From assembly GCA_016288855.1 (NCBI GenBank), contig JAEELJ010000009.1, positions 1 to 33,835 on the forward strand: a stretch of DNA of 33,835 nt. The letters run 5' to 3'. Below, in pieces: positions 297-3,624 of the stretch. How positions within the stretch are numbered: the stretch's first letter is position 1; every line of letters starts with the position of its first letter. Below the pieces are notes generated by a model. The model was not told where the DNA came from, searched no databases, and was given only the letters and a program-made list of their open reading frames with translations. Source of the stretch: Acholeplasmatales bacterium (GTDB taxonomy: Bacteria > Bacillota_I > Bacilli_A > Acholeplasmatales > Anaeroplasmataceae). A program made the translations under genes and the position numbers.

Positions 297-1433
297 TTAA
301 TTCATTCTAACAGGTAGAATTAACTGAGTTAAATTTGAATCATTTTCACCACGTACAATAAATGGTCTAGTTTCAGCTTGTAAGCCTAATGTAACCTCAG
401 TTGAAATAAATGATTTTAATGCATCAAGTAAATATCTAGATGAGAATCCAACTGCGATAGGACCATCAGCATCAATACCTGTAGGTAATAATTCTTCTTT
501 TGCATCACCAATTTGAGAATTTGTTGTAGAAATTTCTACACTTCTATCCTTCTTTAATTCTAATTTAACAATAGAATATGTAATTTCTTTATCCTTAGCA
601 GAATCTCTTGGTGAAAGTAATGATACTCTTTCTACTGCTTCAATTAATTCATCCTTATTGAAAGTTAAATTAATTGCAAAATTAGAAGATATTAATTTAG
701 ATGTATCTGGATAGTTACCATCTAATAATCTTGTTTGGAAACAAACATTTTTAAATTGTGCTAATAATTTATTAGATTGGAAGTATAAATTAACATCTCC
801 AGCAAATTGATCAATTGCCTTTAATAATTCATCTAAAGACTTATTTGGAATAGTAATATTAAAATCATTATATGGTTCAATTGATATTACCTTTTGTGAT
901 AATCTAAATGAATCTGTTGCAACAACTGTTAATGTATTATTTACATTAGTGAAATTAACACCAGTTAAAATTGGCTTCTTTTCTGATGATGATGTTGCAA
1001 ATACAGTTGACTTAATCATGTTCTTTAAAACATCAGCATTAAGCTTTAAAGGATTTTCTAATGCAACAAAATCCATCTTTGGATATTCTAATGGATCCAT
1101 TACATATAATTTATATTCACCTCTATCAGCTTTAATAACTAAAATTTTATCTTCAGCTAAATAGAGGTTAACTTTTCTAGAATTAATTTTTCTAATAATA
1201 TCTATAAATTTTCCTGGTACAACAGTTTGACCTGGTTCTTTAATTTCTAATGAAGCATCATTAATTGTTACTTCTACTGAAATATCAGAATTAGATGAAG
1301 TCATAAATAAATCATTTTCTGTTACATAAAGTTTAATACCAGTTAAGATAGGCATTGGTGATTTAGTTGGAAGTCCTCTTGAAATTGTATTTAAGTTTTC
1401 AAGCAAAACTTCTCTATCGATTGTTAGATTCAT
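297..1433 (-). CDS. dnaN: DNA polymerase III beta subunit (sliding clamp)
   Basis: 378-aa ring-forming clamp that tethers DNA polymerase III to DNA. The protein shows the three-domain DnaN pattern: N-terminal MNLTIDREVLLENLNTISRG, a central GVNFTNVNNTLTVVATDSFRLS (the clamp signature ATDSxRL), and the C-terminal end TQLILPVRMN, matching the usual P-(V/I)-R-x ending. Length is normal for the family. An in-frame ATG five codons upstream (1448) is rejected because the Shine-Dalgarno AGGGAGG overlaps it and is well spaced from the ATG at 1433. The gene lies downstream of dnaA on the same strand, 152 bases away, as in most Bacillota. Two terminators and an intron follow it, so the usual recF-gyrB continuation is not directly attached. 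Confidence 0.97.
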   Translation of the reverse strand: MNLTIDREVLLENLNTISRGLPTKSPMPILTGIKLYVTENDLFMTSSNSDISVEVTINDASLEIKEPGQTVVPGKFIDIIRKINSRKVNLYLAEDKILVIKADRGEYKLYVMDPLEYPKMDFVALENPLKLNADVLKNMIKSTVFATSSSEKKPILTGVNFTNVNNTLTVVATDSFRLSQKVISIEPYNDFNITIPNKSLDELLKAIDQFAGDVNLYFQSNKLLAQFKNVCFQTRLLDGNYPDTSKLISSNFAINLTFNKDELIEAVERVSLLSPRDSAKDKEITYSIVKLELKKDRSVEISTTNSQIGDAKEELLPTGIDADGPIAVGFSSRYLLDALKSFISTEVTLGLQAETRPFIVRGENDSNLTQLILPVRMN

Positions 1434-1471
1434 AAAATCCTCCCTCATAAAAAAATAAAATAATATTTCTT

Positions 1472-1507
1472 TAGTAATAGTAATAAGGAATGTTGATATG
1501 TGGATAA
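1472..1507 (+). promoter_or_regulatory. Origin unwinding element: DnaA box plus DnaA-trios
   Basis: An exact DnaA box (TGTGGATAA, the reverse of TTATCCACA) lies at 1499-1507. Reading 3' to 5' away from the box on the plus strand, a 12-base spacer containing GG is followed by AAT-AAT-GAT-AAT-GAT (1486 down to 1472). These are five consecutive 3'-(G/A)AT-5' DnaA-trios. An A/T-only stretch then leads toward dnaN. This matches the order box, spacer, trios, AT-rich DNA known from the Bacillus subtilis unwinding system, which is also between dnaA and dnaN. Confidence 0.7.
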
Positions 1508-1550
1508 CTCAAAAACCCCTTATAAATACTGATATAATTATATCATAATT

Positions 1551-1580
1551 AAAGTGGAAAATAAATAATATTTCCACTTT
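1551..1580 (-). terminator. Weak hairpin after dnaA
   Basis: Ten-bp perfect stem (AAAGTGGAAA/TTTCCACTTT) with a 10-base A/T loop, five bases after the dnaA stop. The minus-strand sequence beyond it is AT-rich but lacks a solid T-run. It may be a partial terminator or an RNA-stability element between dnaA and dnaN. Confidence 0.4.
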
Positions 1581-1585
1581 ATTCT

Positions 1586-2911
1586 TTATAGTTTTTTAAT
1601 TATTGCTTCCACTGCCATTTCTAGTTCTTGGTTAGTTTTTAAATCATCTTCTATTTTATTGCAACCATTCATGACAGTAGTATGATCTCTACCATTTAAG
1701 ATATTACCTATTTTAGAATATGTAAGATTATATTTAGTTTTTAATATATACATACATATGTGTCTAGGTAATACATATTTTCTATCTCTATTTGAACTTA
1801 ATATATCAGCAACAGAAACATTATACATATCAGATATTATAGATAATACATCTTCATAATTAGCTTTCTTTTCTGATTGTTTTTTAGATTTAATTAAAGG
1901 ATCTAGTGCTTCTATAGCTATTTCTAATGATAATTGATTATAAATATCAGAGTATAATAATACTCTATTTAAAGCTCCTTCAAGCTCACGTACGTTAGTA
2001 CTAAATTCCTTTGCAATATATTCAATAATTTCGTCTGAAATTGTTTTAGTAGTATGTTCTACAACCTTTTGACGTAGAATTTTTATTCTTTCATCATAAT
2101 CTGGTTGTTTCATGTCAGCAAAAATACCCATTTGGAAGCGTGAAGTTAGACGATCAACGAATCCGTTTAATTGATTTGCTGGTCTATCTGATGTAATAAT
2201 AATTTGTTTTCTATTATTACTCATAGTGTTAAATAAATTAAAGAAAGCTTCCTGAGTAGCACTTTTATCTTTTAGCATTTGAATATCATCTAGTAATAAA
2301 ACATCAATATTAGAATACTTGTTTTCAAATTCACTCATTTGATGATCTCTATTAGACTTTATAAAGTCTGATAGATAATCATTTGCTTGAATATATAAAA
2401 TCTTATAATCTGGATGATTTAAAGAAATAAAATTACCAATGGCTTGCATTAGGTGTGTTTTACCTAATCCTACTCCTCCAAAAATATAAAATGGGTTAAA
2501 TAGAGTACCTGGATTATCTGCAACCTTTAATGCAGTTAAATAAGCTGTTCTATTAGACCCACCTACAACAAATGATTCAAATGTAAAATTTAAATTTAAA
2601 TTATTATTTGAAATCGTTGGAAAATTTTGTTGTACAGGAGCCATAGGAATTTCATCTTCTGTAACAAATCTTACTTGATATTTAGAATTTATATCTTCTA
2701 AAATCTTTTTTATGTTTTCAAAATATGTGTTGTTAATCTTGTGTTTAATGTATTGGTTTGGTGTTAAAACAAATAAAGTATTGTTTTCCTCTTTAACAAC
2801 CTTGCGCGCGCTCATAAAAGTATCTTCAAAAGTATTAGGGGCAAGCTTGTGTTCTAAGACATCCAAAACCTCATTCCAAACATTTTGACCAGCTAGTACC
2901 TGATCCATCAT
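1586..2911 (-). CDS. dnaA: Chromosomal replication initiator DnaA
   Basis: 441-aa AAA+ initiator that binds DnaA boxes and opens the origin. Domain I is at residues 1-80 and a short linker (domain II) at about 85-108. Domain III carries Walker A GGVGLGKT (145-152), Walker B LLLDDIQ (about 205-211), and sensor motif ITSDRP. Domain IV at the C-terminus has the DNA-binding signature RHICMYILKTKYNLTYSKIG and GRDHTTVMNG. Two adjacent ATGs (2911 and 2908) follow the Shine-Dalgarno AGGTGAG. The second is better spaced, so the protein may start one residue later. A candidate promoter lies at 2935-2962, with two DnaA boxes immediately upstream that suggest autoregulation. Confidence 0.98.
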   Translation of the reverse strand: MMDQVLAGQNVWNEVLDVLEHKLAPNTFEDTFMSARKVVKEENNTLFVLTPNQYIKHKINNTYFENIKKILEDINSKYQVRFVTEDEIPMAPVQQNFPTISNNNLNLNFTFESFVVGGSNRTAYLTALKVADNPGTLFNPFYIFGGVGLGKTHLMQAIGNFISLNHPDYKILYIQANDYLSDFIKSNRDHQMSEFENKYSNIDVLLLDDIQMLKDKSATQEAFFNLFNTMSNNRKQIIITSDRPANQLNGFVDRLTSRFQMGIFADMKQPDYDERIKILRQKVVEHTTKTISDEIIEYIAKEFSTNVRELEGALNRVLLYSDIYNQLSLEIAIEALDPLIKSKKQSEKKANYEDVLSIISDMYNVSVADILSSNRDRKYVLPRHICMYILKTKYNLTYSKIGNILNGRDHTTVMNGCNKIEDDLKTNQELEMAVEAIIKKL

Positions 2912-2962: not shown

Positions 2963-3196
2963 GGCTTTTTTATCCACCGAAAATGTGGATAACTTTTTCA
3001 TTCACATAGGTAAAAATAACTATTTTTTGTGGATAACTTGATAAAAAAAGCCTTATATTACTTGATTTTTTTTAATTTATCCACATTTTAACCTATTTTG
3101 AAAATGTTATTAAAATTATCCACAATACCAAAAAATTTTTCAACTTTTTTTTACAAAATTTTATACAAAAAAGTGGATATTTTTTAAACAAAAATT

Positions 3197-3236
3197 CTTT
3201 CATAGTTTTCATTTAATTTTTTGAAAAAAATGAAAG
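3197..3236. repeat. Imperfect inverted repeat inside oriC
   Basis: CTTTCAT (3197-3203) pairs with ATGAAAG (3230-3236). Inside, TTTTCA faces TGAAAA, giving a hairpin of about 13 bp with a small asymmetry. No T-run gives it a terminator character in either direction. Confidence 0.5.
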
Positions 3237-3419
3237 TAATATTATCTTACTTTTTTACTTGAATTTTTTTAAACTTTTTATATAGATTAGGTATAAAAAT
3301 TACGCTAATTTATATATATATTTTTTTATTTTATTACGTACACATACGTATATAATATATATAATAAAGATGGAAAAATGATATTTTTCTTAATCAATGA
3401 AAAAGAAACTAAAAATATG

Positions 3420-3448
3420 TTGACATAAATATTCATATTTGATAAAAT
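3420..3448 (+). promoter_or_regulatory. rpmH promoter
   Basis: Consensus -35 TTGACA (3420-3425), 17-base spacer, -10 TAAAAT (3443-3448). Transcription would start near 3455, giving a leader of about 35 bases with Shine-Dalgarno AAAGGCGG ahead of rpmH. Confidence 0.85.
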
Positions 3449-3489
3449 AAGTGAGCGTGGTTTCAAATAAAGAAAGGCGGTAACAAGAT

Positions 3490-3624
3490 ATGAAGAGAAC
3501 TTATCAACCTAATAAACTTAAGAGAAAAGTTACACATGGTTTCCGTGCTAGAATGGCAACAAAGAATGGTAGAAAAGTTATTGCTGCTAGACGTAAAAAG
3601 GGCAGAAAACATTTAACTGCATAA
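3490..3624 (+). CDS. rpmH: Ribosomal protein bL34
   Basis: 44-aa, very basic ribosomal protein of the large subunit. Translation gives [20 protein letters not shown], then [20 protein letters not shown] and HLTA. This is the almost invariant L34 sequence with the MKRTYQP start and the GFRARMxTKxGRxVIxxRRxKGR core. It starts at the ATG at 3490 behind AAAGGCGG, with a consensus promoter upstream. It is divergent from dnaA across oriC and precedes rnpA, the conserved arrangement. A terminator-like hairpin (3653-3692) separates it from rnpA and probably lets rpmH be expressed well above rnpA. Confidence 0.98.

Follow-up and report, generated by a model that had tools for sequence, protein, structure and literature searches.

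A predicted DnaA-trio unwinding element in the dnaA–dnaN gap of an Acholeplasmatales bacterium and switching of the trio middle base among its relatives

The gap between dnaA and dnaN of an Acholeplasmatales bacterium carries a perfect DnaA box followed by an in-phase run of DnaA-trios, and related genomes carry tracts in the same register whose middle base is either adenine or thymine. Our joint reading, which we consider likely, is that this gap holds the basal unwinding system (BUS) of the chromosome origin, that the trio of the class is 3'-[A/G][A/T]T-5', and that a DnaA pocket reads the middle base and changes together with it. The anatomy of the element, its place in relatives, the register of the tracts, the A/T switching, and the statistical covariation with DnaA were computed here; binding of DnaA and opening at the gap element are what we infer from these sequences.

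Anatomy of the dnaA–dnaN gap

The window, that is, the whole stretch of 33,835 nucleotides analyzed here, is a single contig of a 1.77-Mb genome. Its features around dnaA are the following.

297..1433, minus strand: dnaN (P0001)
1449..1471, no strand assigned: A/T stretch past the trios with 22 A/T bases out of 23, where opening is predicted to begin
1472..1486, plus strand: five DnaA-trios, 3'-AAT AAT GAT AAT GAT-5', from 1486 down to 1472
1487..1498, minus strand: 12-base spacer TATCAACATTCC, from box to first trio
1491..1499, minus strand: degenerate second DnaA box ATATCAACA, 2 mismatches, mostly within the spacer
1499..1507, minus strand: DnaA box TTATCCACA, 0 mismatches, predicted loading site of the DnaA filament, at the same place in the genus
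1537..1547, minus strand: extended −10 promoter-like element TATGATATAAT, 29 nt before the box
1551..1580, minus strand: inverted repeat directly after dnaA (AAAGTGGAAA / TTTCCACTTT), perfect 10-bp, with degenerate DnaA-box halves
1586..2911, minus strand: dnaA (P0002); residues at B. subtilis positions 187/190/193/202/228/231 are S/I/N/E/A/N
2970..3124, no strand assigned: cluster of five boxes upstream of dnaA, none with more than 1 mismatch (TTATCCACC at 2970, plus strand; TTATCCACA at 3077 and 3116, plus strand, and at 3036 and 2992, minus strand)

For dnaN, a start at 1433 is likelier than one at 1448. Beyond dnaA lie plus-strand genes that we take, from gene order and sequence, to be rpmH, rnpA, and yidC, which they resemble.

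Read 5' to 3' on the minus strand, TTATCCACA (1507–1499) is followed by TATCAACATTCC (1498–1487) and by TTA TTA CTA TTA CTA (1486–1472), with all five trios in one phase. This confirms the perfect box, short spacer, and five (A/G)AT trios that an initial annotation had placed here (1507–1472); the same annotation had the trios lead into pure A/T DNA, a description that needs amending for one C (1469) within 1449–1471. By the published rule, a BUS is predicted where a box has no more than two mismatches, the spacer does not exceed 16 bp (its lengths peak at about 10–13), and three or more 3'-NAN-5' trios stand in a row on the strand whose 3'-to-5' direction leads away from the box (PMC8287927; Pelliciari 2021). 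The window element has a box with 0 mismatches, a spacer of 12 bp, and five trios that are all 3'-RAT-5', and is, judged by these features, on its own a further predicted member of the BUS. A tandem second box is reported for 57% of predicted BUS and is not required (PMC8287927; Pelliciari 2021); relatives show a clearer WWTCCACA at the place of the second box. The looser form of the rule (box with at most two mismatches and at least three NAN trios) has 22 matches per strand in the AT-rich window, so that only the strict form is informative: a perfect box, a spacer of 8–16 bases, and at least five RAT trios occur together at one place only in the 33.8-kb window (both strands), and when the box was held fixed and the following 50 bases were dinucleotide-shuffled, at least five RAT trios arose in 2 of 20,000 shuffles.

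Order and orientation had also been said to match the basal unwinding system of B. subtilis, and this claim holds for architecture, strand, spacing, and place, in which C. difficile agrees as well. The B. subtilis BUS comprises DnaA-boxes 6/7, a GC-rich spacer, and six DnaA-trios in the dnaA–dnaN gap; the window is like it in place, order, strand, spacer length, in-phase RAT trios, and a second box cluster upstream of dnaA, and unlike it in the weakness of the second box, in a DnaA that keeps only I190 among the base-contact residues, and in having relatives with mostly T-middle trios.

The element at 1537–1547 is likely the dnaN promoter. An extended −10 (TRTGnTAWAAT) precedes the BUS box in 86 of 99 order-level loci, at a median of 29 nt (IQR 28–30), and in 14 of 1,980 shuffles; in the wider class, it is found in 23 of 75 loci, mostly at 18–19 nt. 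Since the promoter-like element precedes the box, the BUS would lie within the dnaN leader, and transcription through this leader may help or hinder opening. The inverted repeat at 1551–1580 is situated between dnaA and the putative dnaN promoter, where some relatives have GTGGA ... TCCAC pairs, and is possibly a terminator or a DnaA site.

The gap and the upstream box cluster as sites of opening

With its second cluster of DnaA boxes upstream of dnaA, the window has the layout of a bipartite dnaA origin. In the window, none of the five boxes of the upstream cluster is followed by a trio tract. Among relatives, where a strict BUS was defined as a box with at most one mismatch plus at least four units, the gap holds one in 57 of the 90 order-level loci with both sides available and lacks one in the other 33, and the 600 nt upstream of dnaA hold one in 0 of the 90 (shuffled upstream DNA, 2 of 460). 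It could be argued that the DNA opens in the A/T-rich upstream stretch (3125–3400) and that the gap tract is a mere regulatory DnaA site in the dnaN leader. The upstream region does contain more boxes (a mean of 5.0 versus 1.6 in the gap at order-level loci) and long A/T stretches; the skew changes sign near 3000–3500; dnaA seems, by third-position skew, as co-oriented with its fork as dnaN; and the dnaN promoter-like element stands 29 nt before the gap box. We nevertheless regard this alternative as quite improbable, given the absence of trio tracts upstream in all 90 loci and the mapping of C. difficile unwinding downstream of dnaA (PMC7561715). The whole-window sign change near 3000–3500 does not decide between the candidate opening sites. 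Third-position GC skew of dnaA and dnaN in 35 loci (means 0.146 vs 0.110, p 0.33) did not discriminate and gave no sign of forks diverging downstream of dnaA, and the four-fold sites of the window are too few for a fork-direction test. The dnaA–dnaN gap, which had been annotated as the place of opening, is well supported by its anatomy as the predicted site. A known parallel in layout is C. difficile oriC2, likewise part of a two-part origin with trios beside boxes in the dnaA–dnaN gap, where unwinding maps beside the trios and needs both origin halves; a difference is that the trio sequence quoted for C. difficile is of the CTA/TTA (RAT) kind (PMC7561715).

Under our preferred reading, DnaA would bind the box pair (1507–1491) and then pass onto the trio strand, which is the plus strand of the window. 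A filament growing three bases per step toward dnaN would open the DNA from about 1486 toward 1449, as in B. subtilis, and the upstream box cluster would serve as the accessory half of a two-part origin, probably by looping. A DnaB_2 domain is present in the genome of the window (G000:C42), as it is in the control genome, B. subtilis, and makes a Bacillus-type loading route plausible; the domain search that found it identified no separate dnaD in the genome of the window. The ORF with the DnaB_2 domain adjoins an ORF with a weak DnaA match (G000:C42:31913-32811), and the two are perhaps a helicase loader pair, dnaB-dnaI.

Register and middle base of the trios in relatives

We gathered 243 dnaA loci from the order and the class, partly hand-picked for spread from listed genomes, with one genome per species and many draft assemblies, and retained 210 after the removal of 33 duplicates. 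Leaving aside 19 of the 210 loci without a box (at most two mismatches) after dnaA and, from the remaining 191, 5 loci that were too short or contained odd letters, 186 tracts were analyzed by unsupervised EM with a tied three-base unit, using 60 random starts and three designed registers. The phytoplasma-like genomes (group g18) mostly dropped out, having no box in the gap. Over the 186 tracts, the best unit on the top strand is [T.74/C.18][A.60/T.35][A.85], and its start offsets peak at 12 and 13 nt after the box, inside the range published for spacers. Read on the trio strand, the unit becomes 3'-[A/G][T/A]T-5' in the canonical register, with positions 1 and 3 kept and the middle position split. 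The calls of tract type, which depend on thresholds, divide the 186 tracts into 108 RTT, 40 RAT, 23 mixed, and 15 uncalled; the two-state tests used 148 tracts, with the 38 of 186 that were mixed or uncalled left out. Among 739 in-register units, the middle base on the trio strand is T in 476, A in 247, and another base in 16, and a conserved middle adenine was not found as a trait of the class. The initial annotation had suggested that trios and their three-base phase be examined in close relatives: register and phase are kept there, and the middle base is not. The genus of the window, with 21 tracts, has 11 RAT, 7 RTT, 2 mixed, and 1 uncalled.

Every register fits a pure TAA repeat, and the T-middle tracts might have been misread by one base, being really 3'-T[A/G]T-5' with a middle adenine that is mostly kept and a first base that changes; the simplified NAN rule finds such an out-of-register match in 73 of the 108 RTT tracts. 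We think this improbable, because the EM, from whichever start, gave [Y][W][A] as its best unit at the canonical spacer of 12–13 nt and because mixed tracts hold one phase (e.g., L105, TTA TAA TTA CTA CAA). Moreover, C on the top strand, which is G on the trio strand, occurs at positions 1, 2, and 3 in 32, 0, and 2 of 200 units of RAT tracts and in 96, 7, and 7 of 540 units of RTT tracts, and its place at position 1 in both types argues that RAT and RTT share a register. A shift by one base would often put G in the middle of the trio, which B. subtilis DnaA disfavors (PMC10721633). An adjacent-run phase test (10 in register, 5 at offset 2, and 0 at offset 1; 40, 66, and 20 in 50-fold shuffles) leaned the right way and was replaced by the EM because short overlapping runs blur the phase. 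A strand flip of the trinucleotide tract, considered on a first look at the relatives, was dropped, since the register analysis shows that only the middle base differs.

That the three-base pattern is kept by DnaD rather than by DnaA seems very improbable to us. TAA and TTA repeats both yield TnnT on the top strand, opposite the trios, and 5'-TnnT-3' is the published DnaD motif (PMC10201434). Against this, C at position 1 breaks the motif in 138 of 772 scored units, TnnT requires neither a fixed distance of 12–13 nt from the box nor A at position 3, and the residues that covary with the middle base sit in DnaA.

Two groups of relatives have gaps of other kinds. In four small genomes of group g18 (L157, L160, L161, and L162), about 40–52 nt separate dnaN from the preceding dnaA and contain neither a box nor a trio tract, and the unwinding element appears to have been lost or moved. 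In L142, L143, and L144 (group f3), a short tract resembling TTAATAATAAAG comes directly after the box pair and continues straight into the ribosome site of dnaN; on its sequence, this layout is a predicted compressed BUS.

Middle-base switching and the DnaA pocket

When the five pocket columns were left out of the DnaA tree, at least 16 changes of RTT/RAT state were counted, compared with a mean of 35 changes for shuffled labels; a second tree gave 17 changes. In the family tree, most of the 16 members of the group that includes the window are RAT and the adjacent groups are RTT, so that the canonical trios of the window may have been regained, depending on where the root lies. Tracts are also purer than expected: of the 140 that have four or more good units, 78 proved pure, versus the 26 expected with independent middle bases.

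In the structure of B. subtilis DnaA, Asn187 and Glu183 hold the middle adenine, Arg202 and Glu228 hold the guanine of the first base, and Ile190 and Ile193 flank the third base; activity fell when T or G took the place of the middle A and did not fall with C there (PMC10721633). Of N187/I190/I193/R202/E228, the DnaA of the window keeps only I190, its residues being S, I, N, E, and A. Because it differs at four of these five contact residues, the likeness to B. subtilis covers the layout and not the known chemistry; since, according to the structure paper, no contact residue is universally conserved (PMC10721633), the mismatch bars only a claim of the same chemistry and not membership in the BUS.

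To relate DnaA to the middle base, 390 DnaA columns were scanned against a null of traits simulated on the tree under a simple two-state model, and the p-values accordingly depend on this model, the tree, and the rate (a rate of 1.3 corresponds approximately to the observed number of changes). At rate 1.3, the columns ranked 1–4 of the 390 are 228, 15, 231, and 187 (BH 0.024–0.036), with p = 0.00006 for 228 and p = 0.0003 for 187. In the B. subtilis structure, residues 187 and 228 contact bases, and 231 is a neighbor; the chance of two of five named contact residues falling in the top four is about 8 in 10,000. The result was stable across two trees and three rates, and 187, 228, and 231 did not rank high for the control traits (spacer length and box variant). 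With strict tract calls (n = 78), 231 ranks 4, 228 ranks 7, and 187 ranks 27 (p 0.03), and with the first three units only, 187 ranks 15. Columns 183, 193, 196, and 202 show no association with the middle base in the scan, and 190 shows a weak one (p 0.03). Where E/V187, E228, and K231 occur together, 79 of 93 tracts are RTT and 4 are RAT; where none of the three occurs, 24 of 46 are RAT and 9 are RTT. Positions 15 and 76, which lie outside the pocket, also score high. Position 15 (B. subtilis DnaA numbering) belongs to domain I, far in sequence from the single-stranded DNA pocket, and tracks the middle base as strongly; its association is perhaps hitchhiking.

An explanation by residue 187 alone was set aside. 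In independent pairs, residue 187 gave 8 pairs (2.5 the same way, 0.2 the other way, median p 0.5), a comparison of low power; among the outputs listed, 202 and the reverse test for 228 were also nonsignificant, and at the family level, 187 and 228, with two pairs each, gave no signal. The column scan is more powerful, though tree- and rate-dependent. The contact residues EIINE occur in genomes of both kinds (L206 is RAT, and L209 and L211 show TAA runs), so the five contact residues are not the whole rule.

It is also conceivable that the middle base is not read at all, that mutation and slippage let the tract drift back and forth between TAA and TTA, and that the covariation is residual shared ancestry. 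Repeated switching, E187 genomes of both types, and the nonsignificant independent pairs would fit such drift. We find it rather unlikely in view of tract purity far above expectation, of the rarity of C or G in the middle (16 of 739 units), and of top covarying columns that include two base-contact residues under a phylogenetic null and that control traits miss. The pocket apparently changes together with the middle base; the association was computed statistically, and a causal or compensatory role would be our interpretation of it.

In our preferred reading, the first purine and the third T of the trio would be kept, and the pocket of DnaA to which positions 187, 228, and 231 belong would read the middle base, A in some lineages (that of the window included) and T in most, and would change along with it. 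Glu187 could accept thymine N3-H, Lys231 could meet thymine O4, and Asn or Asp at 187 would suit the amino group of adenine. We put forward tentatively, leaning slightly against it ourselves, the stronger proposal of a lineage-specific trio code in which residues 187/228/231 set a middle A (N/D/S187, often with non-E228) or a middle T (E/V187, E228, K231), tracts and pocket switch together many times within the class, and the E. coli motifs TTATT/TTGT are the T-middle form.

Relation to known systems and implications

The single-stranded DUE motifs of E. coli, 5'-TTATT-3' and 5'-TTGT-3' on the trio strand, contain 3'-[A/G]TT-5', which is the T-middle unit, and E. coli DnaA has Q187 and V190; the best-studied copies are more distant from box R1, and their binding to box-bound DnaA is by ssDUE recruitment (PMC10316083). 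The equivalence of these motifs to T-middle trios is a resemblance only. In E. coli oriC (L299), two in-phase TAA units begin 14 nt past box R1 on the box strand (3'-ATTATT-5' on the trio strand). The eTrio of Thermotoga maritima is similar in having TAG repeats on the same strand and a TTATT motif in the same element, and differs in its box motif and its directional binding (PMC10316083).

The middle adenine of the trio has been called highly conserved and possibly pivotal (PMC8235120), and a 2026 review gives the motif as NAN (PMC13220808). The authors of the BUS survey suspected deviant trios without the middle adenine, and the sections of the survey on BUS prediction show no example of them (PMC8287927). 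The titles and abstract openings of the literature that we found include none on such trios, though supplementary logos may already show them. Relative to this literature, what is new is a class whose trio middle base switches; the window element alone is not new in kind. Of the 108 RTT tracts, the simplified NAN rule misses 34 and misregisters 73, figures that are an indication only, because the rule was applied without the published trio score and misregisters 17 of the 40 RAT tracts too.

The middle adenine is the sole base that the published search (3'-NAN-5') demands, and it is explained by a named cryo-EM contact. A class that switches this base in register, together with pocket residues, supplies natural swap pairs for studying how DnaA reads single-stranded DNA. 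Should the proposed code be true, two separate descriptions of DnaA holding single-stranded origin DNA would become one. For 15% of genomes, no unwinding module is predicted; T-middle trios could account for some of these, and the motif 3'-[A/G][A/T]T-5' would allow origin calling.
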